Assembly: GCA_903813345.2 (NCBI GenBank)
Contig: CAIIXF020000010.1
Span: forward strand, 35,081,425-35,145,424
Length of the DNA stretch: 64,000 nt
Source of the DNA: Owenia fusiformis
Lineage: Eukaryota > Annelida > Polychaeta > Sabellida > Oweniidae
Direction: 5' to 3'
Position numbers and translations under genes: made by a program. Under the pieces are notes generated by a model. The model was not told where the DNA came from, ran no database searches, and was given only the letters and a program-made list of their open reading frames with translations. Positions 8,070 through 63,307 of this stretch are shown here, piece by piece. The number at the start of each line of letters is the position of its first letter. Position 1 is the first letter of the stretch.

Positions 8070-8655
8070 CTACAACCTCACTGTCCCACAACTAGTTACT
8101 TTGACGGAACTTCCTGGATACGAGTTTTTTGTTTTATCGATTTAAACTTACGTATAGGACATCTTGCGGATTATCATCTGGTACAAAATTAGACAATATA
8201 GTCTAGCTAGTCTAGAAATGCTCTCGGTTTGGAATTTGATTTTTAAATAAAGCTGTAATTCATGCATTTAGACCATCGCTTTTGTTACATTGACGCACAA
8301 GTCTTCAAAATAACGTACATTTATTCCAGCAGAAATATAGGGTATTTTGACAATCAATCGTTTTCTTCGGATTACAATGTTTTTTTAGCTTTTCAGCATC
8401 AATAGAGGGTTGGGACCTCAAAACCACGGAATGCCGGAGCGGCACCCTCGGGCAACTCTCTACAGATCATTTTCTATACCCCCAGGTAAAATTTACAGGG
8501 GGTACTATAAGATGCCTTTATATCTCAAACACTAATAAAGATAGAGACTTGAAATTTTCAGCAATTACTTTTGATATGATGGTTGATCTGTATGACAAAA
8601 ATCAAGAAAAAATCTCAAGCGGTTGCTATAGCAACAGGAATTCCACACCATTTCT
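8070..8655 (+). repeat. Left long terminal inverted repeat
   Basis: Pairs with 14180-14770 in inverse orientation. It contains a near-perfect palindrome at about 8480-8505 (CCCCCAGGTAAAATTT followed by ACAGGGGG), a motif echoed in the termini of the 13.2-kb element. Confidence 0.8.
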
Positions 8656-9180
8656 TACATAAGAAATGTGTTGTTTTAAGGGATTTTGTTGTTTTCTGCA
8701 TATTGCTGATTCTAAATATGTTGGTACATTGTAGAATGTTTTAAAATGTATTGTTTATGTAATAAATGTAACTTTAGTCACTATGGCAACATCACAGGGA
8801 TCATAATTTTATTTTCACCTGATGGGGATACCCTTGATATTAGAGGGAATTCCATGGATTCCCCTTTGTCATGGGAATACAATGTCAGAAAGAGGCTATT
8901 AAGACAGGAAGTCATATCAACTGAAGCATGAATATTGCTGACTTTGTGATAATACAACATTTCCAGGTAAATACTCATATTCCATTCTGTATACCCATTC
9001 TAGGAAAAAGCTATATATATTAGTAAAAATGAAATATATCTCTGACACCTATATTTGATTCATCCATGGCCGTGGCATTTGGTAAAAATACATTTTAGGT
9101 TCTACATCAAGTATTACACAGTGTGTCTTTTTCTTTAGATTATGCCATTTTATCTTAATAGAAGGTTATATATTTCACTA

Positions 9181-9261
9181 CAGTAAAACCTGTAAATCAG
9201 AACATTTCACAAATTCACTTGTGGCAGACCTAGTTTTGTTCAGTTAAGACGGGTTTTACTG
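9181..9261. mobile_element. 81-bp pogo/Tigger-type MITE in 5' intron
   Basis: The ends CAGTAAAACCTGT and (C)GGGTTTTACTG are inverted and flanked by TA on both sides. It has the same terminus type as the larger element at 35296-36143. It lies within the probable 5' untranslated intron (donor GTAAATAC at 8967, acceptor TTTTCCAG at 9324) of the nuclease-element gene. Confidence 0.7.
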
Positions 9262-9325
9262 TACTTGGAAATGTGCAGTTGCCTGGATAAGTTGTGATAA
9301 TAATCAATTAATCATATTTTCCAGG

Positions 9326-12157
9326 ATGTCAACTTGTCTCTTTGGTTGCTCAAAAGAAGGTCAGACATACATAACTGTCGGGCCAAAGAGGATACTGTCA
9401 ATAATAGAATCAAGTAAATTAAGGGGAGATTCTCTTCATAAAGACTTAGAAAAGCAACTTAGAGACAATCCATCCTTAAATATAGAAGTACATCGAAATT
9501 GTGTTAGTGCATACACATCCAAAGAACATGTAAAAAGACATATTCAAAGAACTCACAAACGGTCCTCAAGTGCCCCACCTGCTTCAAAGCGTTTAAGAAG
9601 TTCAAGCACAGACATCATCTCACAGTTTAGTTTTCTTACTCACTGCTTCTTTTGTGGAGACATTGCCCATAAGAAAGACACAAAACACCCAAATCGATGG
9701 AACAGAGTTGTTGAATGTAGGACAGCATCATTACCAGATGGGAAATCTTTCAAACAACATATTCTTGACATTTGTAACACAAGATCTGATGTGAAATCTG
9801 AATCCATACGAATCCGTTTACAAGGAATACCATCAGATCTTCATGCTGCAGATGGTCGCTACCACCAAAAGTGCTATAATCATTTCATGAAACCATTCCC
9901 AAGTTCTTCTAAATCATCAACTGAAAGGGATACAAGTCAAGCAATCATCTCTGTAATAAAACAGATGCAAAAAGATGACACTGTTATCTGGAATTCCATA
10001 GACTTATTTGAACTGTATGTTTCCTACGGTGGTGATAAAAGTAGAAGATGCATGATGCAAGAGCTTGGAATGATTCTCGCTGATACTCACGTTATTCTAT
10101 CTGGAAAGCCATATGCCAGTCTTATTGTACACAAGACAGCTTCTCACAAAGTCATCAAACTGAATGACAGTGCTGAGGCAGCTAATGACAGTGCTGAAAA
10201 TGAAATCAAGCAGGTCGCTTCACGTATATTAAATGAGACAAAGCAAATACAGCCATCTAGTACAGTGTACAAATCACATTTGAATAAAGATATCGCTGGA
10301 GAGTCTGTGAGTGGTACATTAAGTGCACTTCTCCAAGCAATTTCCCCAAAGCTAAGTCAAATGTCCCTCCCTGCAATACTCATAGGAAATATTGTTACTA
10401 GTATACTTAGTTGTAAGTACACCCCACTACTAATTGACCTTGGAGTGAGACTGAGAGATAAAAGCATAATAAATACCATGAATGATTATTATGCATGCTG
10501 TTCATATGATGAAGTCCAACGATTCAAATCGTCAGTTGCTCATGCAGAGGCCAAAAAGATGACACGTCAGGGAATGTATGATGCCAGTGATGGATTGATT
10601 CAAATGATGGCTGACAACTTTGACGCAAATATCAGTTCGCCAAATGGATTGAAACAGACCCATGCAATAGGCATGATCATAACACAAAGCAGTATGATGC
10701 AACCTGAAGATGAGTCTCCTATTGATACAATACCCCGCTTGTCAAAAGTAGATGCAGCAGAGCCCCCTATGCCAGAGGTAGTTCAAATTTATGATGGTCC
10801 TAAAAAACCTGAAATGCCATTAGAAGCCTTGAAGATAGGAGAACAAACCCTGAGTCCAGATATGATTGAAATACAAACTGTATCATTAAATAGGTCATTA
10901 CATTTAGACTTCACTTTCCTCAATGACATAGTGAAAAATGAAGAAACACCAGAGTATAATGGATTCAACACTAGCATAGCCAGAAACCAGGGCCACACTA
11001 TAAAGCCAGCAACAAAGGTTCAATATCATCCATTAATAGACTTGAAACCAGCAGATCCTAGTACAATACTAACTGTTATGGTAGAAAGTGAGGAGATAAC
11101 AAATGCATGTGGTCAAACACACACAATATTAACTTTAGACCAGCAGCTCTACAAGATTGCTGTTGCACTGAAGTTTCACAATCCAGACAGATTCCAAAAC
11201 TTTGTCATACGTCTTGGAGGGATGCATACTCTTATGTCCTTTGTTGGCTGCATTGGCATACTTATGGCTGAAAGTGGAATTGAAGAGTTACTTAGTGTGT
11301 CCTTCGCAGGTGTTAAGAAAATGCTCACTGGAAAAAACTTTCCAAACAATGTTCGTGCTCTGCGAATGCTCACTGAAGAACTACTGAGGACATCTATTGA
11401 GCATTGTGAGTCCTTCGATGACCTCCTCAAAAACCTAGAAGAGAAGTCAAGTCAAAGTCCTACAACAAAATTATGGTTAGAAAACCTCATTAAGCCTACT
11501 CTCATAATCATGCGCTTCATCAGAGCTGAAAGGGAAGGAGATTGGTTACTTCACCTATATGCAGTGGAGGAAATGATTCCATACTTTTTTTCGGCTCGTC
11601 ATTTCAATTATGCCAAATATGCCTTATATTACCTACGTGATATGCAAAATCTCCCAAATGAGGTACTTCAGGCATTCCTCAGAGGTGAACATGTCAACCG
11701 CCATCAACCAGGCATCTGGAATGGAATATGGAGTGATATGATGGTGGAGAGTACCTTCATGAGATACGGACATGGTCCCTCAGGCATCATTGGGAATACC
11801 CTCAATCCAGCAACAGTCAAGAGATGGGCACTGAGTATGCATGTTTGTAGTAGAATTGCCAATGATCTAAATAACATGACAGAAATTGAAGAAAAAACTG
11901 TCATGAATCATAAGGAAGAAAGTAATGGACGAATAAAATCAGATGGTGTAGACAGATCGAAATTGCGTGAGAAGCTTAGCTCAGTCATAGATCCCCTAGA
12001 TCCTGAATCGCATCCACCTGCCTTGGTCAACATAGTTACTGGTAAACTCAGTCCCGAGATGGTAAATGCTCATGAATCTGTGAAACTTGGAATGGAGCAA
12101 TGGGAAGTATATGAATCATCGTGGCCCCTAGGCTTTTATGGATCTCTCACTACAAAG
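9326..12157 (+). CDS. Element-encoded protein, exon 1 (zinc-binding N-terminal region)
   Basis: The reading frame is open from ATG 9326, one base after a good acceptor (TATTTTCCAG), to 12190. The coding exon probably ends at 12157, where AAAG/GTACTT gives a phase-0 donor; reading on would add only 11 unrelated residues. The N-terminus has two similar Cys/His modules. One is C4, C8 with H56-x2-C59; the other is C107-x2-C110, C131 with H180-x2-C183. Each ends in HxxC plus aromatics (HRNCVSAYT, HQKCYNHF). A basic stretch (SKRLRSS, about 87-93) could be a nuclear signal. The middle (200-900) is predicted mainly helical. It includes FDANISSPNG and GDWLLHLYAVEEMIPYF, which I recall from uncharacterised invertebrate repeat proteins. 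Whether it hides an RNase-H-like transposase fold cannot be decided by eye. Confidence 0.75.
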
Positions 12158-12384
12158 GTACTTTTTTATCACAATGACAATACAAACTAAATAAAATACC
12201 AAGAACTTGATTTTTTCATTTTAGGGACCCATCATTTAATAAGGGCCCATGGGCCATTTATTGGACTTGCAAAATGATAATTTAAAACATCAAAATTATG
12301 ACAAAATTTAGATTAAAATTAATCTGATATCATTAGGATTGAATTATTTGATATCTCATAATTGAACATGTATGTTGCTTACAG

Positions 12385-13975
12385 GTGATAACCATGGCTG
12401 TATCAAAAAAGAAGATCCAAGTCGAGGGGATATCTTCATATGACACTGAACTTATCTACTCACGTATAATTGGTCTCATGGCTACAAGATCTATGGACAT
12501 GAACAAAATTATCGCCCACGAACTTTCCCCTATTCCCACCTCAATGTTTGATGATAGCGGTGATATGAAAATCACAAGTTCGAAATCTGTAATGAAAACC
12601 AAACTTCAAGTAGAGAAATCCACACGGGGTCAAAATTGTGATTGTCAAATCATAGATGGTTGTGATAATTCCCTGGCCCTCAAATGGAACTGTAGGAGAT
12701 TTTTGTTCAGCCTTCAGCAAATACATCCAGATGAAGCTAAGATTTTCTGATGTGCACCTTGTGTTCGATAGGTATAACTCCACTAGCATTAAATCCAGCA
12801 CAAGACAGTCTCGAGCAAAGTCAGCCACCAGAGTATTCAAACTAAGTCCCACGACTGAATTACCAGCGCAGAATGTAGTGTTAAATGTTACAGAGAACAA
12901 AACACAGTTGATTGACCTCATAGTAGAGAGATTGTCTACTGAAATTACAGGAAACCAATTCAAACTGGTGTTAACTGGAAAAGATCCTGTCCCAATTCAA
13001 CTTCAATTGGGCGAAAAACTCCAACGACATGATCTTGCAAATACCCAAGAAGAGGCTGATGTAGTCATGATTCACCAAATGCTTAAGATTGCAGAATCTG
13101 GAGCAAGTAACATCACTGTAATTTGTGATGACACAGATGTGCTACTACTACTTATGCACCATTATGATAAGCACAACCTGAAACCTGTGAATGTTACAAT
13201 GGAAGGCACATCAGCTGGGAGAGCAAAAATTGACATATCTGCCTCAATAGATGCTGTCATCAAATCCACAAATGACAAAGATGTTATTTCACAATTATTA
13301 GCTACACATGCCATAACAGGGTGTGATACAACGAGCAGTTTGTATGGAATTGGAAAACTGAAGGCAATTAAAACATTATTTGGTGCATCAAAGCTTACAG
13401 CTTTGGGGGAATTAAACTCTGACCTAAACACCATTATATCTCAAGGAACCCAATTCATTTCCCGTTGCTATGGCATCATTTCAAAGGAGAATGAGACCAT
13501 GTCTGATGTAAGGTACATTGTACGGACCAGAAAAACTGCTGCAAAACATGTAACCAAGGCCCCAGATCTGAAGTCACTACCACCAACAAAAGAGGCCTTT
13601 GAGCAACACTTAAAGAGGGCTCACTTTCAAACGTGTATCTGGACCCACCTTCTCTTGACCCACAAGACTGGATGGGAACAAGTAAATGGATCACTTCGTC
13701 CCATATCCTTACCACAAGGTGTCCCATGTGCTCCTGATGACATTCTCAAAATGATCAAATGCACATGCTCAACCAATGATATGTGCAATAGCAACAGATG
13801 TTTTTGTAAGCAGACCCCTCTACCATGCACAGTCTTCTGCAACTGCAAAGGAGGCCGAGACTGCAATAATGAACATTCAAAAATATCCATTAACATTGAC
13901 CAAGATGTAGATATTGATGAGGACACTCTTAGAGAAATACTTGACGAAATACTTATTAAAGAAAGTGAAATGTAA
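12385..13975 (+). pseudogene. Element-encoded protein, exon 2: FEN/XPG (PIN-like) nuclease region plus CXC tail, one frameshift
   Basis: It follows a 227-bp intron (12158-12384, acceptor TTGCTTACAG) in phase 0. The frame beginning at 12385 reads to CQIIDG (about 12643-12660) and must shift one base between 12658 and 12668 to continue as VIIPWPSNG in the frame open to 13975, so this copy carries a single-base lesion. Ordered acidic motifs match FEN/XPG nucleases. They are an N-terminal Asp (IIDG), VFDRYN (about 12765), EADVVM (about 13050), DDTDVLLLL (about 13130) and GCDTTSSLYGIGKLKA (about 13320), the last resembling the Asp plus helix-hairpin GIGxxxA of FEN1. The C-terminus (about 13758-13872) is a cysteine cluster (CTC, CNSNRCFC, CTVFCNC, CN) like CXC/tesmin zinc-binding repeats. 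A DNA structure-specific nuclease role is inference. Confidence 0.65.
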
Positions 13976-14179
13976 AAACTTGAACATGAAGCAAAATTTA
14001 CGTTTTGGAACTTTGCACTGTTGCCATGGCAGCTGATGAGTTAGAAACATTTCATGAACCATTTTATGAATCATTCTATCTTTATTTCTCATCATGCTGT
14101 ATGTGACAGGGGATTTAAGAGTCAAGAACAAGAGAAAATGATGAAAACCCACAAAATAGAACATTTACGAGGTAACAAA

Positions 14180-14770
14180 TGGTATGGAATTCCTGTTACT
14201 ATAGCAACTGCTTGAGTTTTTTTTTTGATTTTTGTCATACAGATCAACCATCATACCAAAAGTAATTGCTGAAATGTTCAAGTCTCTATCTTTATTAGTG
14301 TTTGAGATATAAAGGCATCTTATAGTACCCCCTGTAAATTTTACCTGGGGGGTATAGAAAATGATCTGTAGAGAGTTGCCCGGGGGTGCCGCTCCGGCAT
14401 TCCGTGGTTTTGAGATCCCAACCCTCTATTGATGCTGAAAAGCTAAAAAACATTGTAATCCGAAGAAAACGATTAGCTCTTAAGATTCTGCCAGACTAAT
14501 TGGTAATATAACGGGCTTTCGTCAATCTAACAAAAGCTAGGGGCTAGATATATGAATTACAACTTCATTTACCAAACAAATTCCAAATCGAAGAAACTAA
14601 CTAAAACTAGACTAAAATATTTTCTAGCTTTGTGCCAAATTATAATCTGATTCATAATAGTAGGTTTAAATCTAGAAAAGAAAAAACTCGTGACCAGGAT
14701 GTTCATCCATTTTGTTACATTGACATTCCGTCAAAGTAACTCGTTGTGGAACAGTGAACTTATATGATGT
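14180..14770 (-). repeat. Right long terminal inverted repeat
   Basis: Reverse complement of 8070-8655. It begins about 200 bp after the stop codon of the element gene. It shares the CCCCC-AGG / GGGGG palindrome and the AAGCTAAAAAACATTGTAAT stretch with the left arm. Confidence 0.8.
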
Positions 14771-37074: not shown

Positions 37075-37413
37075 CTGGTGTATTTGGTGTTGGTGTACCT
37101 GGCGTTGATAATGTTGTATTTGGTGTTGGCGTACCTGGCGTTGATGTTGGTGTATTTGGCGGTGACGTTCCTTGCGTTGATGTTGGTGTATTTGGTGGTG
37201 GCGTTCCTGGCGTTGATGTTGGTGTATTTGGTGGGGGTGTTCCTGGCGTTGATGTTGGTGTATTTGGCGGTGGCGTTCCTGGCGTTGATGTTGGTGTATT
37301 TGGTGGTGGCGTTCCTGGCGTTGATGTTGGTGTATTTGGTGGTTGCGTTCCTGGCGTTGATGTTGGTGTATTTGGTGGTGGCGTTCCTGGCGTTGATGCT
37401 AGTGTAGTTGATA
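37075..37413 (-). CDS. Mucin-like Pro/Thr/Ser repeat exon, copy A
   Basis: The minus strand has acceptor CTCTGTTTCCAG, 339 coding bases (113 codons) and a donor CACCAG/GTATC at 37074. A second in-phase donor (CCA/GTAAC) 12 bp further on is equally possible. Both borders are phase 1. The product is a tandem array of about eight 12-residue units TPGTPPPNTPTS, a pattern suited to dense O-glycosylation as in mucins. It has no cysteine and no hydrophobic segment. It belongs to a tandem duplicate together with copy B 1.35 kb away. The 13.2-kb element begins 89 bp into the intron downstream of this exon. Plus-strand frames with GVFGGGVPGVD repeats are antisense shadows. Confidence 0.7.
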
Positions 37414-38428: not shown

Positions 38429-38875
38429 CTGGTGTATTTGGTGTTGGCGTACCTGGTGCTGATAATGTTGTATTTGGTGTTGGCGTACCTGGCGTTGATG
38501 TTGGTATATTTGGCGGTGGCGTTCCTTGCGTTGAAGTTGGTGTATTTGGTGGTGGCGTTCCTGGCGTTGATGTTGGTGTATTTGGTGGGGGTGTTCCTGG
38601 CGTTGATGTTGGTGTATTTGGTGGTGGCGTTCCTGGCGTTGATGTTGGTGTATTTGGCGGTGGCGTTCCTGGCGTTGATGTTGGTGTATTTGGTGGTGGC
38701 GTTCCTGGCGTTGATGTTGGTGTATTTGGCGGTGGCGTTCCTGGCGTTGATGTTGGTGTATTTGGCGGTGGCGTTCCTGGCGTTGATGTTGGTGTATTTG
38801 GTGGTGGCGTTCCTGGAGTTGATGTTGGTGTATTTGGTGGTGGCGTTCCTGGCGTTGATGCTAGTGTAGTTGATA
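38429..38875 (-). CDS. Mucin-like Pro/Thr/Ser repeat exon, copy B
   Basis: Same structure as copy A: acceptor CTCTGTTTCCAG at 38876 and above, donor CACCAG/GTATC at 38428, phase 1-1. The exon is 447 bp (149 codons), which is 108 bp, or exactly three 36-bp (12-residue) units, longer than copy A. The units are TPGTPPPNTPTS with few variants (LELMLV-type changes are seen only in antisense frames). Whether one or both copies are spliced into the mature mRNA cannot be told; symmetrical phases permit either. In a membrane or secreted mucin this would be a stalk next to EGF modules. Confidence 0.7.
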
Positions 38876-41632: not shown

Positions 41633-44600
41633 ATGCTTTTTGTCACTTTAGTACTGTTCCTTGTAACACGGTTGTTACGGCCTATGTTCATGACAGGGCC
41701 AGAAACACGTGTTACAGTATTATATTCTATTATATTCACATTAAGTTTAGTTTATCAATATGCATATACTGTAACTGATCTTCATTAGAGATCTTAGGTC
41801 AAGTCAAGGTCACAATGACATTATATCTTGTAAACATAACTGAACTGAATGACTCATTAACTCTTGGCCTTCTAGAAAGTACTGGAACTGTAATCATTTA
41901 ATCAAGATTGAATCATGTGACTTAAGATGTCCAATCAGTGTTATTTTCTAGAAATCGTAACTTCTTGAAACATCTGGACTATGCCTTTGCACTATATAAT
42001 GAGAGAGCTGATTTGGACTGTCAGCAGAATTTCAAAGTCTATCAAAAGGACATCTTCTTAGCAGAAAATTACAGACACCTACTTTGGGAACATTTATAAC
42101 AGTGCAAGCATACAACCTGAGGACTTTATATGGACATATATTATAACACACACTATATACGGATTATCATATACATTCGTGGATTATCATAAACATTTGT
42201 GGATTATCGTTAAACATTTGTGGATTATCATCAAACATTATTGGATACGAACATTATAGGATTACAACAAACATTATTGGATTATTACAAACATTGGAGA
42301 ACTATTAACGATTATTGAAACTTTCGTGATCTGGAACATTCTCAAGGAACATCACGGATATTCATCGACATCCAGAATAAGCCGTATCATTGATTGGACA
42401 TCACTTAAGTATTAAACCTCCTTTATATTATTGTTATATTATTTAGTTTTCAAAAAATAAATATATTGTTATCATATTTTAATTGCTGTTTTTACTTTCT
42501 GTTAGTTTCGAACGTAACACACGTAACATTGTTATAACGTCTTGGAATGCAAATGGGCTCAATGCCTCGAGCCCATACCTTTTTAACCTACTGTGCAAAT
42601 CTGATATACTATGTTTGAGTGAACATTGGCTCTACCCTGGTGCCTTAAATGTATTAAATAAAGCCCATCCAGATTTCGTATGCATTGCTGAAAGTAGCAA
42701 CTCTCTTGATCCCTTAAACCAAGGTCACATTATTGGGAATGGAGGAATTGCTATTTTCTGGAGACAATCGCCAGACTTGAATATTGTAAATGTAAAGAAA
42801 TTCAGATGTGATAGATACATAGTCATTAAGGTTCTGCAGCCTGGCTGTCGTGACTTACACATAATTAATGTTTACACTACCCTCCATAAGTTTGGCAACC
42901 TTTTTTCTCCATTGAACTACGTGTTAAAGCCTCTTTACGTTTGAATTTTTATTTACTTAACCGGCGATATATTAACGTATAATATTGATGGAAACGTAAC
43001 TTGACTTTATTTCCAATAGCTCCAAATTTTCTCAATTTTTTTCCTCAATTACAATAGGTCGAAAATTGATGATAGATTTGATGAATTTTTGAAAATCGTC
43101 ATTCCCATGTAATCCAATGGGAAATTGAGGGTTCGGGGCAAATCAGAAATCAGGATATCTTTTCAGTAAAAGATTCAGCAAAAAATATTTTTATATAGAA
43201 AATTGAATTGTCTAACCTTTTTGAACACTAAGTGTTTAGTTTATTTGATGAATATTAAAGTTACAGCGCTTCAAAGTCATTTTTGAAAATAATTTTTCGC
43301 CTCCTGTGTTATTTCAATGGGAGAGGTTTTTTGAAAAACAATTTTGACTTTAAAGCCCTATAACTTTGTTGAACCTGAAGGAACATATCAATTTTTTGTT
43401 AAATAAAGTTAGCAAATTCAATTACCTGCCTAAATTGTATTTTTTGCAAGGATTCGGATAGATGGATATTCTGTCATATGACTTGCGGCAAACCTACTAT
43501 TTCCCATTGGATTACATGGGAATGTCGATTTTCAAAAATTCATCAAATTCATCATCAATTTTCGACCTATTGTAATTGAGGAAAAAAATTGAGAAAATTT
43601 GGAGGTATTGGAATTAAAGTCAAATTAAGTTTCCATCAATAGTATAAGTATTTTCATCGCAGGTTAAGTAAATAAAAATTCAAAGGTAAAGAGGCTTTAA
43701 CACGTAGTTCAATGGGGGAAAAAAGGTTGCCAAACTTATGGAGGGGAGTGTATATGCCTCACGCAAATTGTAAAAATGCAAATTTCCTAGAAGTCTTAGA
43801 TAGACTTGAAATAATAACCGAGGAATTGCAGAATGATGGCGATGTAATTATCACTGGTGATTTTAACGCAGATTTTGGGAATACAGTGGGAACAAGAGGG
43901 TCGGGTGAAATCACACAAAATGGCACTCATTTGCTCAACATGTGCACAAGGACAAATCTCGTTCCCATTGATATGTTCCCACAATGTACTGGACCAGTTT
44001 ATACATTTTTTCGAGACTACACTGGTCAATCCTACATAGACCATTTTTTAGTACCCGAACATGCAATAGGTCAATGTGTTAACGTGAATGTTATTGATAA
44101 TGAAATGTTAAACCTATCTGACCACCTCCCGATTAAATTAACCGTTTGTCAAAAGCAAGAAGTCTTTTTCAAAAACAAACCTGTTAAAAAGAATGAAACA
44201 GAACGAGTCTCGTGGAAAAAATCATCCTTAGAACATTTAAATGATTATTCCAATGAAGTTCATCGCTTAGTAGAAGAGCGCCTTATGCCTTTGCTAGCTA
44301 GATCGAGTGAGTTACGTGATAAAAGGTTTATCGACGACTGTTTTAATCTGCTAACTTCGATATTTCACGAGGCAGCAAATAAAACTCTCCCTAAAACCAA
44401 ATACTGTAAACATTTAAAACCGTACTGGAATCAATCATTGAAAGCTCTAGTAATTCAAAAGAAATCCACGTGGAATCAATGGATTATGCATGGAAAACCG
44501 CGCTCTCCGGGAAATGTTCAATGGGAAGCATATAAGGATGCAAAAAGATGTTTTAGGCGGGAATTGAGAAAATGTGAGCAAAACTATGAAATCCGATGTC

Positions 44601-46885
44601 AGAAGGAGATTGACGAGCTAGAAGAAATATCTTTAAACCAATTCTGGCATCTGGTTAAAAAACGGAAGCCACGATCAGCTCCGAATATTGCAATCAAAAC
44701 AGATGATGGAGTTATATTGACTGATGATAACGACGTCACAAATGAATGGAGATCTTATTTTATGAAATTGGTGTCTGCTCATGGAAGTGATCAAGATGAC
44801 TATGATAATATGTTTTTTCAAAATGTTAATAATGATATCGCCAGAATGGAGCATGAAAGCTTTCTAAACAATGATCTAGCATTCGAACAACCTGTTTCTG
44901 TAGCAGAAATTGAAAAGGTTATTTCCAAGCTTTCAAAAAATAAAGCCCCTGGTTGGGACCAAATATGCTCAGAACATTTAAACAAAGGAGGTACAATCGT
45001 TTTAAACGTACTTGTAGAATTATTTAATTGTATAATATCTTTGGAACATATCCCTGAGAATTTCAAATTGGGTGTCTTGATTCCGTTATTTAAAGGCGGT
45101 GTAAAAGATCCCTTAAATAAGGATCACCACAGGGGCATCACACTGATGACGTCATACATGAAAATAATGGAACGGTTAATGATGATAAGAAGTGAACAAT
45201 GCAATTGTCTTGAACCCAAGTCTGAAATGCAAGGTGTTGGTCTTCCAAAATGCTCAAGCATACACACGTCACTTCTAGCCAGAGAGGCTATATCCCATGG
45301 ACTTGAGTTAGGCAATGACGTCATCGTGACGTCACTAGATATTAAAAAAGCCTTCGATAGTGTGTGGCACGATGGTCTATTATATAAATTATACAATCAA
45401 GGTATTAATGGCAAGTTATGGAGGTTAATCAAATTATCATATAATGGCTACAGATGTACAATTAAGGCTTCTCCAAACTGTCCCATGTCTGAACCTTTTG
45501 TTGTTGAAAAGGGGGTCCACCAGGGCGGAATTTATTCTATGGAATTGTATGCCAGATTTACAAATGAATTACTAAATGAAATACAAAAATGTAACATTGG
45601 TAGCACTATATGTTGTATTAACTCAACAAGCCCCACATTTGCAGATGATACTGTCTTAATTGCATATCATGCCAAATCAATGCAGCAACTATTGGATAAG
45701 GTGTATCGATACAGTGTTAAATGGAGATTCCAATATCACCCAGACAAATGCCAAACAGTCGTTTTTAGTAATCAAAGGGATCCGCCTAAACCCCACTTAC
45801 TACTCGGGGGGAAACAGTTACAGGTAGTTGATTCAATGCAGCATGTAGGATTACACCTTACACCAAAATCAGATTTAAGCTATGTAGACAATGCCGTCTC
45901 TAAAGGAAGGCGTACTATGAATGCCTATATTGGTGTGACATCAACGATCAACAACCCCACGAACCCTTTAACTGCCTCAAGATTGTACTGGTCGATATGT
46001 ATGCCATCTCTAACATATGGCCTGGAACTAATTTCTGTGAACGAGCAAGCATTGAGTAAACTGGAAGGAGGGCATAGAGAAATTGCTAAAAAGATTCAAG
46101 GAATTTCAGCAAAAACTTGTAATCCCGCGTGCACAGCAACACTAGGGTGGCACTCAATATCAAGTAGAATTTTCATTAGTAAACTGATGCTACTTTGGCA
46201 GCTGTTAGCACTTCCTATCACAAATGTGTATAAGAAACTGGTCATAGTAAGATTAACCTTTGCAACGCACTATAACCTTCATAAACTGTCCCCAATTGGA
46301 GATTGTCTTAAGATAGCTAGATCGTTTGGACTTCTGGGTGATGTATATGAAATGCTTAATGTTGGAACTATTCCAAAATTGCAATGGAAAAGACGTGTGA
46401 AAAATGTTGTGTATGAACGGGAATTAAGCAATTGGAGAGTACAGTGTATTTTGTTTGAAAAGTTGTCTTTATTCAGAATGGTTCAAAAAGAGATAAATCC
46501 CCTTGTATGGTGGACCCTAGCAAAATGTAATCCCATGCTACTTAAACCATGTAGAACCATGGTTAAATTATTAACGGGTGAAGGAAATCTCATGGTTAAC
46601 TGTAAACGGTGGTCGGGTGGCAAGATAAATGATCTATGCTTGGTATGTGGCGAAGCTATTGAGAATTTAGTTCATATGGTACTAGAATGTCCGGGGCATA
46701 AGGCAAAACGAAAGGATATTGAGAATATTCTTATTCAGATGTACCTTGATACCCCTCTCCCACCGAATGACGTGTTATTACCGATTTTATTTGGCGAAAA
46801 TAATGTACTGACAGAGGATCAATATATTAAGATAGCTCTGTCAATTTATGGAATGTATGAGGCAAGACCAAATGTAGATTTTTGA
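41633..46885 (+). CDS. LINE ORF2: endonuclease + reverse transcriptase + zinc knuckle, interrupted by two insertions
   Basis: It begins with ATG 41633, 31 bases after the ORF1 stop. It is interrupted by a solo LTR after VTR and by a MITE within INVY/MPHAN. The coding parts are 41633-41672, 42525-42874 and 43753-46885. The APE endonuclease motifs are ITSWNANGLN, LCLSEHW, ITGDFNAD, SYIDHFLV and LSDHLPI. Reverse transcriptase motifs include KNKAPGWDQI, SLDIKKAFDSVWHDGL (about 45337), GVHQGGIYSM and the catalytic FADD (about 45640). A C-terminal CCHC knuckle (CLVCGEAIENLVHMVLECP, about 46636-46695) completes it. All visible catalytic residues are present. As it stands the ORF is broken only by the inserted elements. 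Confidence 0.85.
41673..42519. mobile_element. Solo LTR inserted at the start of LINE ORF2
   Basis: Begins TGTTACGGCC and ends ACGTAACA, 847 bp. The flanks are CACGGT (41667-41672) and CACGT (42520-42524), a 5-bp duplication with one extra G at the left. The interior has a degenerate tandem GGATTATCATAAACATTTGT repeat (about 42160-42300) and AATAAA-like signals near 42459. Its removal rejoins the ORF2 frame (FLVTR-NIVITSWN). It is distinct in sequence from the LTR at 6592. Confidence 0.75.
42875..43750. mobile_element. 876-bp TA-flanked MITE inside the LINE endonuclease
   Basis: The ends CACTACCCTCCATAAGTTTG and, inverted, CACTCCCCTCCATAAGTTTG are flanked by TA (42873-42874 and 43751-43752). 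Long inverted arms (TTAACACGTAGTTCAATGG and others) cover much of the element. Removing the element and one TA restores the coding frame of the endonuclease (INVYMPHANC). A related end is present near 33290. Confidence 0.9.
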
Positions 46886-49849: not shown

Positions 49850-52528
49850 TCTAAAATATCAAGAGCCTGGCAGATGTAATGGCTAACTATATGAATAATT
49901 TGTTCATTATCAGTTACTGTGAGATTTCTGTCTCCAAATAATAAAAATTGAATTTTTTCATAAGAGTTTAAATTTTGGAAACATTGAAAAATCCTAAGGT
50001 TTTTAGTCCTGCTAGGAGAGTGCATCTTTCTTGTTGCAGCAGAGGGCAGTTTAATAAAAAGTGATGCATTGTTTGTTGTATGTCACCACATACGCAGAAA
50101 GGGTCATTTACTGTCACAAAGTTATGGGAATATAAATGTGCTTTTAGAATCAGAATTTCAATTTTTCTTGGCATTGTCATATTCATTTTAGTAGTGGATA
50201 CTCTGGAGTCGGGGCTCATATTTCCTCTTACTAACCTTTTAAATCTAGATATTGGTTGGCCTTTCCTGTCCTCATATGGTATGTCATCCCACAGGGTCAG
50301 AGCCCTGATAATGGTTGACTTTTTGAACGAATTACTGATTGGAAAGGGTATTCTATAATGCCTTGGTTGTCTTAGGGGCCGATTTGGAATATTCTCGTAT
50401 GAACTAACTAAATCACAAATGAAAGGAGGGAAACAATGGTATCTAGCCTTGAAAGCAAAAATTTTAAGATGTTCTTCTCTCCTGGAAGCTAACGTTTTCC
50501 AGTTGAGTAATGATAAAACTTTCGATGTGTTTGAACCGTGTATTGCTCCTGACACATGGCAAGCTGCTTGATAATGAAGTCTATCCAATTTTAATAGTTT
50601 TGAAGTTGATGCCTTATCATATATTTAAGGAATAAATAATGATAGGCCATTCAATATGGTGAAATTCAGCACGAGTTGGACAGAATGTTGTACAAAGCAC
50701 GAACCGAAGGTGAGTGCATTTGTACTAACATTCTGTCCAACGAGTGCTGAATTTCACCATATTGAATGGCCTATCATTATTTATTCCGATTCAAACATAA
50801 AAATTAGAAAAAGCCGTGTCTGTGGAACGGGCATGAAGGAAGAATACGCATGCTGTCAAGATTCTGAAGTCGGCCGGAAAAATTTTAGAATTTGTTTGGG
50901 CTGTTCTATTTTTCTCCCCGTTTTAGATTTTATACGGTGTATGCAAACATGGGGTGTAGTAGTTACGGAGGGAGTAAAAAAGAACAGCTATCCCCGGACA
51001 GAGTCCCAGATGTGCAGCTGAGATGTGACGTCACTCAAAACAATGCAAATTGCAGATTGAATAGAGCATGGTCGTGCATCTATGGAGAATTAGAGAACGT
51101 TCTATATTGGCTATGCTGCATTCTGATTGGTTGAGAAATTCGAATAGAGCACGGTCATGTTTGAATGTATCACAGTAGTCGAAATGTGGTAGTATAAATG
51201 AATTATATATAATATTCTCTAGGTATTTACTGTTTAGTATTTTAGTTAACTCTTTCAATGGTCTAATGAGAAAGATTACTCTCTCTATGAGTTGGTCAAC
51301 ATGTGAATTAAAGTTTAGATTTTGATCAAGCACTAAGCCCAGGTGCTTGTGTTTGGTACAACTAGGTATGACATCTCCTCCTAGTTTTAAAGGGACTGGC
51401 TCTTGTAATAGTCTTCTATTTCCTGATACAAAGGTCAAGTCAGCACTTTTTTTGTGCCTTAGAAGTCATCTTCCAAGGCATGGCCCAATTTGCCAAAATG
51501 TCAAGATCTCTTTGAAGTGGTTGGTGAATGTTTAAAATCTGATCAAAACTGTCATGTGCACTATAAATAGATGTATCATCAGCAAAAATAAATGTTTTGG
51601 AAAGGAGATCATCTGGTAGGTCATTAATGTAAATAAGAAACAGGAGGGGCCCGAGGACTGGTCCTTGTGGTACACCTGCATTGATTTTATAGTTATTTAT
51701 ATTGTGATCATTGTTATTATTATTGTTATTTATTCCATTATTAAGATTTCCATAATTATCAGAGGACCAATCAGATAAGCTGTTGTTGACTTTGGCTCGA
51801 ACCCTTCTGTCTTTTAAATATGATGTCATTAGCTGTACAAAATTGAAATTACAACCATAGCCTTTAAGTTTCTGTATAAGTAATCTATGCGGGACTAAAT
51901 CAAAAGCGGCTGTTAAATCTAAGAAAGCCGAGCGAACATATTTATTTTCATCTATATTTTCATGGATATTGTGAGCAATGTTAATTAACTGGTTAACGGT
52001 GCTGTGCTTCGGGAGAAAACCACTCTGGAATTTGTATAAAAGGTTGTGTTGAAGCAGATGAGCCAAAAGATGTTTGTGAATGATGGTTTCAAGAACTTTC
52101 GAAAGGTTACTTAGGAGTGTCACCGGTCTATAGTTGCTGACAAGTTCCCTGTCTCCTTTTTTATAAATAGGAACAATAATACCTTCTTTCCATATATCAG
52201 GGAGAGTGTTCTCTTCTAATATCCTATTAAATAGTTTACTGGTTGGTAAAGCAAGAGATCTGGCACATAGTTTTAACATTTTGTTATTAATTTCATCAGG
52301 CCCTTGAGATTTAGTTGTGTCAAGATCATGTAAAAGTTCAAAGACTTCTTCAGTTCTAAAATTTTGCATGGTATGTTGTGTTCTAAGTTGGAAGGGAGGA
52401 GTGTAGTCATCATTTATGTTAATTATGTTTTTTCCAACAAAGTATTTCATAAGAGCATTGGCTTTTTCATAGCTGGTACAGGCTGTAGTATTTAAAGTGG
52501 GATTTCTCAATACTGGTATTGTTGACAT
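49850..52528 (-). pseudogene. 5'-truncated LINE ORF2 (Jockey/CR1-type), interrupted
   Basis: Three minus-strand frames make one reverse transcriptase: 52528-51440, about 51438-51160 and about 50628-49968. The RT carries KSQGPDEINNKML, PIYKKGDRELVSNYRPV, SGFLPKHSTVNQL, SAFLDLTAAFDLVPH, NAGVPQGPVLGPLLFLIYIN and the catalytic FADD (about 51565-51580). The second part has LGLVLDQNLNF and FILPHFDYC; the third ends with a zinc knuckle CVCGDIQQTMHHFLLNCP. A frameshift at a T-rich run near 51445-51455 separates parts one and two, and an insertion at 50629-51165 separates two and three. The endonuclease is absent. An Asn-rich run (about 51690-51740) inside the RT is unusual and probably microsatellite expansion. 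Confidence 0.85.
50629..51165. mobile_element. Hairpin-bearing insertion in the LINE
   Basis: It starts with an almost perfect inverted repeat (50629-50700 against 50715-50787) with GGAATAAATAATGATAGGCC and ATATGGTGAAATTCAGCAC in its arms. Its right part contains a partial direct repeat TAGAGCATGGTCGTG / TAGAGCACGGTCATG. Removing about 540 bp rejoins the LINE frame (DYCDTF to NIYDKAS). The borders are approximate. Plus-strand ORFs here are not genes. Confidence 0.65.
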
Positions 52529-52711
52529 CGTGAAATATTGCCCTTTGAAATGACGTTATTGTACTATTCAGTGGCGTATATTCGATCATGCGAATTTTAA
52601 TAATTATACTTCATTAGGACTCACCCTATGTATAGTCTGTCACGTGACTTTATGGATGATGGGTGGGCGAACCGTTCGCGAGTCTTTTCACTACAGTTTT
52701 ATGATGATACT

Positions 52712-60600: not shown

Positions 60601-62018
60601 ACATTGTAACATTGTAATTTTAAAATGCCTTCCCACATAGCTACTAGTCTTTTGGTTATATACAACAGTGACTCTAAACGAATGGATACAAGAAAATATG
60701 CCAATAAATAATAGAAAATATTGAAAATCTCAGATACATTTGAAGTATCAAATTTTGAGGAATTTTCACCGGGGTTCGCACGAAATGCTCGAATCCCCGG
60801 TCGCTACAGGCATGTATTGTGTGCGGTATTTGTTGATAAACCAAAAATACGTTTTCCGCATATCAAGATTTAGATCAAGTCTCCTGTTAGTCTAAGATAT
60901 TATCAAAAATAGCTAGCCATTAATCATAGAGTTAGATGTAGCGAAATTCGTAGGAAGTTGTACCTGACTGTTGTTGGATAGGACGGGAAAGAACGGTAGA
61001 GAGAAGGGTACATCCGACTGAATCTGCTTGTTTTGCCTAATTGTGTTTTAAAATGCCCCTAAGTATATTCACAAGTAAACTTGGCGATAATTTGTATTAA
61101 CTAAATTAAAACACATTACTCCGAAATCCAATACTCAAACGAAAAGTAAGGTTAATCTTTAAAATATAAAGATACATTTAATCAATATTTTCAGATCAAA
61201 ATAAATATATTAAATTGGCCTGATGTATCAATGTTTTCAAAGTTTATTGCGCGTTTTATCTGCTTTGAAAACGCCTTTCTTTTCTCATATCGTGATATGT
61301 ATTTTCTTCACTTAGAATCAACGAGTCGATTAGCATTGCCAATATATTTTCAAAAGACGGGATGAAATTGCCAAAATGTTTAAATAAGTCAGCGTGTATG
61401 CAAACGAGTCGAGTCTGTTTGATATTTCTACTTTTATATGTTCTCAAACAGACTGCGAAAACATGAATAAATAGAAAAAGATCAAAATTAAAAGTACCAG
61501 AGAAAATACTCGGAATATTTCAATACTACCATTAGTAAAAAAAAAATATACCGTTACCTATGATTACTTTATTATAAATACTGTATGTATTGCTTTTAGT
61601 AATTAGGTTAGTTGTTTACACAAAATCATGTTCAGTGTGCCAAGAGCGCAAATACTTTTTGGCATGGTCTTTGCACTGATTTTCACGGTGTGTGCCCAAG
61701 AAGTGCATAGAGGTGTAAAGAGTTTGATTCATCGCTTGTTAAGAGTCGTGCAAAGCCGCTTTGCATGCCGCATTAAAGCGCCATCAAAGCGCCGTTGGTG
61801 TGAACTTAGCTTAAATGAACTTAGGCGGAGTGAAGTTTGTCATTAAAATAATAAAATAGAAGCACGTGTCAAAGAATAGACCAAATGTATCTCTAAGGTG
61901 ATCTTAGATTGTCCGAAGTCAACCATTATAAATATTTGGAATTGCTATTTGTACTCGAGATGTTTTATAAATGTTTACTACATGTAGGTCCTAGAGCATA
62001 TATTTTTCTCATCTTCAG
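57627..62018. other. Long spacer upstream of the ATP-grasp exon
   Basis: No confident gene. A degenerate tandem repeat CAACTCGTACCCAAGAC (4 copies) lies at about 57945-58013. A hairpin lies at about 58203-58262 (GGATATTGATATCTGCAC / GTGCAGATATCATATCC). Minus-strand ORFs 60015-60314 and 60259-60552 show no motif. ORF 61628-61846 begins with a hydrophobic, signal-peptide-like stretch but turns into sequence that looks repeat-derived. Further 5' exons of the ATP-grasp gene may lie here or beyond. Confidence 0.4.
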
Positions 62019-63307
62019 TTGCTTTCAGATACCACAAGCAAGGCGCTGGACATCGGAGGGTGAAACGTGACAATTTTTGTAAGATGTCAATAATTGCTGA
62101 TGGAAGACTTACCAGATGTAGACTTGGCGATTTCTTAAAACAGGATATCGCAAATCCTGTCGTTTTTACAATGTATCCTAGCTCTGCGTTGAATACAAAC
62201 TATCCTTTGAAAAATCTCAAGAAGTACCAAACGATGGAGTTCCCATTTTATTCATTTGATTCGGCTGCTGTCTGGGCAATGGTGACCATTGCAACAATCG
62301 GCTCTGAGGTACCTGTTATGGTGTTGGAGATCCCCAGAAATCTGGATTCGCTGAAGGCACACTGGAGCCGATGGATGCCCTATTATGAAGAATGTACGGA
62401 TATTAGGGTTCTAAATGATGACAATCTTGCTAAGGTTGATGATGGCTCGTTATTTACTCAAATGCCATGTGAACAAATCTCAGATCAAAAGTACACAATT
62501 AATCCTGATACATTCTACGAAATCTACTCTAAGGCATTTATCCCCAAAATAAAAATTAAACAACCAAGAGACATGGTGAGAAAAGAGGCAAAGGCTCCAT
62601 GTGTGATCAAAGTTCCAGTTGCCGCTGGTAGTGATGGTGTAAAGATTGCGACAACTGATCGAGAAATTCTCGAATATGAAGAAAGGGTTATGAAAATGGG
62701 TTGGAAAGGAGAGTTAGTCTTTCAAGAACGTTTAACTGACGTAATAGGTGATCGTGGAGTTCAGTTATACATTCATAAGGATGGCTCTGTCAACCTTGGA
62801 GGTTTCAGCAATCAGACTTTTAGTAGTAGCCCTGCGAGGAATTGGACTGGAGGTATCTTTTATAGGACTCCAGAAGAGGAAAAAATTAATCTACGTATGG
62901 TGAAATTCCTGCAGCCTGCGATCAAGAAGCTTCACGAGATGGGCTACTTTGGTTATCTTTGTTTTGATGTCATGGAAACACGTAACGGGGAACTGTTTCT
63001 GACCGACATAAATCCAAGGGTCTCGGGATCGAATCCTCATGTTTCGATGATAGATGGAATGGCAGGAAAAGGATTTCCAATATCGATGTTCGTGTATGCT
63101 GAATCAAAAGATTTGACAATCAGCGTCGAGCAGTTGATATCTCGAGCAGACTGCCTAAATAAGGGCAACGATGATGCCGTTATAATTATTCTTGCGGCAC
63201 AAGCTACGAAGAACGGCACATTGAAAACGGTGATTTCTATATTTGCAACTACCAAGTGCTACCTACTAAAAGCTAAAGAAAATGCTTTTAATTTCTCCCA
63301 GGCGTAA
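62019..63307 (+). CDS. ATP-grasp-fold enzyme, last coding exon
   Basis: The frame is open from an acceptor (TCATCTTCAG, exon from 62019; a second AG at 62028 is possible) to TAA 63305-63307. It starts ...AFRYHKQGAGHRRVKRDNF and ends NFSQA. About 428 residues are seen, so earlier exons supply the N-terminus. ATP-grasp hallmarks are CVIKVPVAAGSDGVKIA (a Lys and Gly-rich nucleotide loop), VFQERL (the segment contacting the adenine), GVQLYIHKDGSVNLGGFSNQ, YFGYLCFDV, and ELFLTDINPRVSGSNP with the metal-binding Asp-x-Asn-Pro-Arg. Such enzymes join a carboxylate to an amine or thiol through an acyl-phosphate using ATP-Mg. The substrate cannot be named. No signal peptide or membrane segment is in this part. 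No frameshift or premature stop is visible, and the gene is likely functional. Confidence 0.7.

Follow-up and report, generated by a model that had tools for sequence, protein, structure and literature searches.

DDE transposases cut 3′ ends and join them to a staggered target, leaving a short duplication of fixed length. Known TIR transposons move by means of DDE enzymes. Nucleases of the XPG type are encoded by the Academ superfamily; the superfamily and its AcademX lineage were reportedly described in Kapitonov and Jurka 2010 and Kojima 2020. Here, we describe an element of 6,177 bp in a stretch of 64,000 nucleotides from the annelid Owenia fusiformis (contig CAIIXF020000010.1 of assembly GCA_903813345.2, positions 35,081,425 to 35,145,424), which as a whole is referred to as the window. 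The element is very probably a DNA transposon with terminal inverted repeats (TIRs) that belongs to the AcademX branch of the Academ superfamily, and it entered an older foldback miniature inverted-repeat transposable element (MITE) close to the centre of the latter.

AcademH elements are reported to generate target duplications of 9-10 bp and AcademX elements of 3-4 bp, a difference that seems to be related to the encoded helicase and nuclease (PMC10045372). The link of AcademX to the nuclease is our reading of a sentence in that paper, and that paper does not contain the word XPG. AcademX thus described is a TIR element with a transposase, a nuclease, and duplications of 3-4 bp, and the window element fits this in architecture and in duplication length. 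Because these two points fit the published description, we consider the element to be of a known kind. Its length is also near the mean of 5,565 bp of bivalve Academ consensus elements (PMC10294476). The links to a LIN54-like CXC domain and to DUF6589 that are presented below come from the present analysis. An earlier reading of the letters alone (the sequence-only reading) had no named mobility mechanism to offer for the element, but a lineage with this combination has already been named (AcademX; PMC10045372). An apparently unnamed nuclease transposon now has a likely place in a described superfamily, and its ends and target duplication are defined exactly.

The related AcademH elements belong to the same superfamily (PMC10045372, PMC10799480), but carry a helicase and have duplications of 9-10 bp, where this element has a nuclease and duplications of 3 bp. 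No helicase was present among the Pfam matches of the proteins scanned from the window and its relatives. An AcademH anchor was also sought in the same genome, where a Pfam scan of 11 frames from seven loci containing DUF6589 (L075-L081) yielded no helicase. In Kolobok, another DDE superfamily, some lineages have accessory nucleases of other kinds (PMC9587614), and these resemble the element in having a nuclease downstream of a DDE transposase. They differ in their TTAA target and in their nucleases, which are of the PD-D/ExK, DEDDh, or His-Me kind (PMC9587614), as opposed to the FEN/XPG type found here. Membership of Kolobok was rejected on the duplications, which are 3 bp long and varied rather than the 4-bp TTAA. 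More distantly, the Tn7 proteins TnsA and TnsB combine a DDE enzyme with a second nuclease; by analogy, labour may be divided between two nucleases here as well, although TnsA is restriction-like, unlike the FEN type of this element. Within the limited text collection that was searched, which says nothing about the wider literature, there was no paper containing both “Academ” and “XPG” as whole words, nor any containing “DUF6589”.

Nested repeats and the ends of the element

The mobile element proper occupies positions 8322..14498 of the window, between two copies of the target site duplication ATT at 8319..8321 and 14499..14501 (features are on the + strand unless indicated otherwise). Its own TIRs are about 355 bp long, and their inner limits are approximate. 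The left TIR (8322..8677) has the end TATTCCAG, while the right TIR (14140..14498, - strand) has the end TAGTCTGG on this strand. Left and right match in 269 of 280 inner aligned columns, but in only 21 of the first 40. Outside the element lie the two halves of an unrelated foldback MITE, which the element interrupts: the left half, with a CACTG... end, at 8079..8321, and the right half, with a ...CAGTG end, at 14502..14756.

These boundaries follow from searches of the genome (525 contigs, 498,259,871 bases). A query with the entire left arm gave 41 matches, nearly all of them to its inner part only (40 of 1084 candidates scored). When the outer parts of the arms were used instead, a different, abundant repeat was found, in many copies of which the two halves adjoin (40 of 696 and 40 of 752 candidates scored). 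For an alignment with the joined flanks of the window element, eight MITE copies with adjoining halves were selected. All eight run continuously through the insertion point without the element. At the equivalent place ATT is present in six, one of which (L033) also has a short tandem duplication next to it; in L030 and L034 the sequence there is a variant. Since the MITE copies are uninterrupted at the junction while the window has the element between two ATT copies, the element is delimited to 8322-14498, and it entered a MITE that already existed, near its midpoint.

That reading had taken the entire block of 8079-14756 as a single transposon with TIRs of about 590 bp. The inverted arms do exist, with a local alignment score of 833, whereas 20 simple shuffles gave at most 176, and they are nearly unbroken across the inner boundary, as would be expected of one repeat. 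They consist, however, of two nested inverted repeats, the TIRs inside and the MITE halves (243-255 bp) outside. Both outer halves are joined without the element in the eight MITE copies, and the termini of relatives with 3-bp duplications of their own are TAGTC(C/T)GG-like, matching the inner ends. A single block is thus scarcely conceivable; in our view, the MITE copies without an interruption refute it. Beside the arms, a 9-bp direct repeat, TTTGTAGTC, was noticed by eye and considered as a duplication like that of Mutator-like elements, but was dropped, as MITE copies end in CACTG...CAGTG. The MITE in the window has imperfect 5-bp flanks (AACCT/AACTT). This MITE is abundant, and several copies have duplications of about 5 bp, as judged by eye from the alignment.

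Target duplications were read in the window, at 12 retrieved loci, and at another 20 end pairs, in total 33 insertions. The end pairs derive from 25 left-right pairs matched by eye. Four of these were among the loci already and 20 were retrieved; the remaining one, of about 225 bp, was excluded. Two right-right pairs fall outside the set, as do L005, whose ends are unclear, L014-L026, and L075-L082. Exact 3-bp duplications were present at 31 of the 33 insertions, including the ATT of the window, with 4 bp at L004 and none at L008. When flanks of different insertions were paired as a control, 3 or 4 bp were shared in 115 of 1056 cases. The duplicated 3-bp targets vary in sequence among insertions. 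Some relatives, L010-L013, are 3.6-4.8 kb long and share the TIR of the window element, with inverted arms of about 0.7-1 kb; L011-L013 lack any frame of 250 codons, and L010 has one of 290 codons.

The position of the insertion within the MITE could indicate that the nuclease recognises cruciform or hairpin DNA, and that centres of palindromes are preferred as targets. The window insertion is indeed close to the middle of a palindrome of 0.5 kb, with a flank symmetry score of 151, compared with a maximum of 35 in 1056 mismatched control pairs. In addition, the fold predicted for one MITE copy is a long hairpin (z -19), and the insertion site is unpaired in the centroid structure. A site-centred palindrome was found at none of the other 32 insertions, however: 31 of these score no more than 25, and the match at L043/044, with a score of 44, is off-centre. 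Palindrome targeting was therefore rejected as a rule, and we regard this explanation of the choice of the MITE as highly improbable.

A candidate transposase core joined to a FEN-type nuclease

The element carries one gene, which was detected as two frames, one of 980 codons (9248-12190) and one of 439 codons (12656-13975). The predicted structure consists of exon 1 (9326..12157), containing the transposase part with Cys/His residues near the N-terminus and a DUF6589-like core, an intron of 227 bp (12158..12384), and exon 2 (12385..13975), encoding an EXO1/FEN-type nuclease and a CXC domain. Exon 1 ends at 12157 with AAG|GT and exon 2 starts at 12385 with AG|GT, and the junction is identical in L001, L002, and L004. 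In 11 further loci (L005, L014-L022, and L024), both halves form one open frame of 1,254-1,598 codons, some of which reach the edge of the fetched stretch. Given the conserved splice junction and these single-frame fusions, the product is probably one protein. The two-exon gene that had been proposed from the letters is borne out by these comparisons.

The nuclease was missed by plain Pfam searches and by single-sequence searches of the PDB, and was detected by a family profile alone. This profile (16 rows; alignment A2, which omits the window and L006) was compared with PDB sequences at E up to 5, giving five distinct matches, all of them Exonuclease 1, with a best whole-sequence E of 3.3e-4. 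The alignment to Exonuclease 1 covers VFD..S-K..R-RR and GCD..SSL-GIG. Seven ordered carboxylates are conserved in the family. The first Asp (IIDG; 12655..12657), which lies in the upstream frame, is Asp in all 17 relatives, that is, in 17 of 17 lettered rows. The other six (FDRY, EEAD, DDTD, and GCD; 12767..13327) are supported by the family alignment and the EXO1 profile match: five columns are Asp in 18 of 18 rows, and the EEAD column has Glu in 15 and Asp in 3. Judged from these alignments, exon 2 is a FEN/XPG-type (EXO1-like) nuclease, with a complete set of carboxylates in the relatives, as the sequence-only reading had supposed. EXO1, FEN1, and XPG share with it the order of the carboxylates and, in Exonuclease 1, the aligned VFD..S-K..R-RR and GCD..S-GIG stretches; the difference is that the nuclease is here fused behind a transposase and followed by the CXC domain. 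The latter is a tesmin/LIN54-like cysteine-rich domain (13760..13864), for which the profile of the Cys-rich tail gave a lin-54 homolog (5fd3) as its sole PDB match at E up to 5 (E 8.2e-5), in agreement with the CXC-like cluster suggested earlier. The corresponding Pfam family, TCR, was matched in L081 only, below the cut-off (E 0.002).

For exon 1, the sequence-only reading had guessed at a hidden transposase, and conserved residues and homology now favour this guess. The only invariant acidic residues are D430, D605, D804, and E808, which are present in all 15 aligned rows, the window included (alignment A3, which omits L003, L006, L023, L025, and L026; alignment A1 omits L003, L007-L013, and L025). 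Three of these are candidate catalytic residues: D430 in ADNFD (10613..10615), D605 in TLDQ (11138..11140), and E808 in DMMVE (11747..11749). The N-terminal Cys/His modules that had been noted also recur, with C107, H180, and C183 each retained, but in 12 of the 15 rows rather than in all of them. When the exon 1 alignment was compared by hhalign with four DUF6589-type proteins of the same genome (two of which are 99% identical), they aligned at E 5.5e-35, and the four acidic residues, along with the G and H of a GGxH motif, were paired with identical residues. Exon 1 is, on this comparison, homologous to DUF6589 proteins (Pfam PF20231), and a candidate RNase H/DDE core can be placed in it.

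The relationship extends to the nuclease, with which the DUF6589-type proteins align at E 1.1e-34. The nuclease profile matches all eight DUF6589 loci of the genome (L075-L082), with the match in L081 split over two frames, and the exon 1 profile matches six of the eight. Two of the loci, L075 and L076, are 99% identical and hence not independent, and L075 contained DUF6589 at E 2e-11 in the locus search, yet was unmatched in a later Pfam scan. As every DUF6589 locus also matches the nuclease profile, DUF6589 likely represents a transposase core. The DUF6589 loci resemble the element in their homologous core, in which D, D, D, and E are paired, and in the accompanying nuclease, and differ in that five of the eight are in longer frames, of 1,952-2,641 codons. 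An OTU protease-like domain was observed in two of the four long proteins scanned from these loci.

Several observations weigh against the assignments made above. The Exonuclease 1 match sums weak stretches, which singly have E values of 6.5 and 1.3, and the CXC match has a composition bias of 17.7 bits. No Pfam XPG model was matched by any of the proteins scanned. For exon 1, Pfam DUF6589 was below the cut-off both in the window (E 0.0061) and in L014 (E 1e-4), and was unmatched in the other 10 exon 1-bearing relatives scanned (1 of 11 matched), while the exon 1 profile found no match in L080 and L081, although DUF6589 and the nuclease are present there. The RNase H fold of the candidate core is proposed from conserved residues. 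L008 shows no duplication, and AcademX was assigned by its published description.

Both halves of the gene appear to be maintained by selection. For pairs at 49-69% amino-acid identity, the proportion of synonymous differences (ps) was 0.75-0.84, which is saturated, and that of nonsynonymous differences (pn) was 0.19-0.36 in both halves. The only close pair, L001-L006, had a ratio of nonsynonymous to synonymous rates (dN/dS) of 0.38 in the nuclease. Among viral contigs, 11 pattern matches were found, none of which was a relative by tblastn; in the exon 1 alignment, no part was sufficiently conserved to serve as a pattern.

A broken copy, foldback derivatives, and a probable role of the nuclease

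The motifs IIDG, VFDRYN, EADVVM, DDTDVLLLL, and GCDTTSSLYGIGK are all present in the window in the order described by the sequence-only reading. IIDG, however, is in a different frame (12385-12750) from the remaining motifs (12656-13975), with the shift falling just after the first Asp. Because of this, the window copy is unable to make an intact nuclease.

Other derivatives consist mainly of nuclease sequence. In L007, L008, and L009, the gene-downstream end of an Academ-type element like L001/L006 occurs twice in opposite orientation, once over about 2.0 kb and once over about 1.3 kb. Their junctions coincide to within two bases, and all three have the same stop in the frame of the nuclease; they resemble non-autonomous copies with a single origin. 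Duplications of 3 bp are present at L007 and at L009. More broadly, when 104 matches to the nuclease exon (96 of 683 candidates scored) were clustered with gaps under 4 kb, 29 of the 59 clusters, L007-L009 among them, contained matches on both strands, with several breakpoints. Some of these clusters could be neighbouring insertions. Several independent origins of foldbacks are likely, but not proven.

The number of foldback copies that retain mainly nuclease sequence could be taken to mean that the FEN/XPG nuclease alone moves the element, as a new class of recombinase, and that exon 1 is only DNA-binding or regulatory. The nuclease carboxylates are, moreover, conserved as strongly as anything in exon 1. 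Still, D430, D605, D804, and E808 are present in all 15 exon 1 rows and paired with the same residues of DUF6589, the same stop interrupts the nuclease frame of the foldbacks L007-L009, which seem to be non-autonomous, and regular 3-bp duplications fit DDE strand transfer as it is generally understood. It is thus very unlikely that the nuclease is the sole mover, and the view of a nuclease as the only possible mover is not supported.

With 3-bp duplications and conserved D, D, and E residues, strand transfer by a DDE enzyme fits the element. The DDE-like core would cut the element ends and join them to the target with a 3-bp stagger, while the Cys/His modules and the CXC domain may bind the TIRs. 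The role of the fused nuclease, as far as sequence can suggest it, is most likely the processing of a 5′ strand, flap, or hairpin at the element ends or the donor site. Since it is present in every alignment row with its active site kept, the nuclease is probably needed by the element.

A more specific proposal, which we put forward tentatively and consider rather doubtful, is that the two fused nucleases divide the work: the DDE core would make the transferred 3′ ends, and the EXO1/FEN-like domain would cut or trim the 5′ strand or open hairpins, with errors in this step repeatedly yielding foldbacks. If true, such errors would explain the abundance of foldbacks in which one element end occurs twice in inverted orientation. 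The findings raise the question of what keeps a FEN-type nuclease under selection in a DDE element, and whether the many foldback copies are shaped by it.

Other features of the window

Elsewhere in the window, two frames encode reverse transcriptase domains, as in retrotransposons lacking long terminal repeats, at 43676-46882 (+) and 51443-52555 (-); the former additionally encodes an endonuclease domain. An open frame of 439 codons at 61988-63304 (+) had no Pfam match at E 0.001. Finally, two arrays at 37076-37410 and 38430-38872 share one common 36-bp tandem unit, in a region of strong GC skew.

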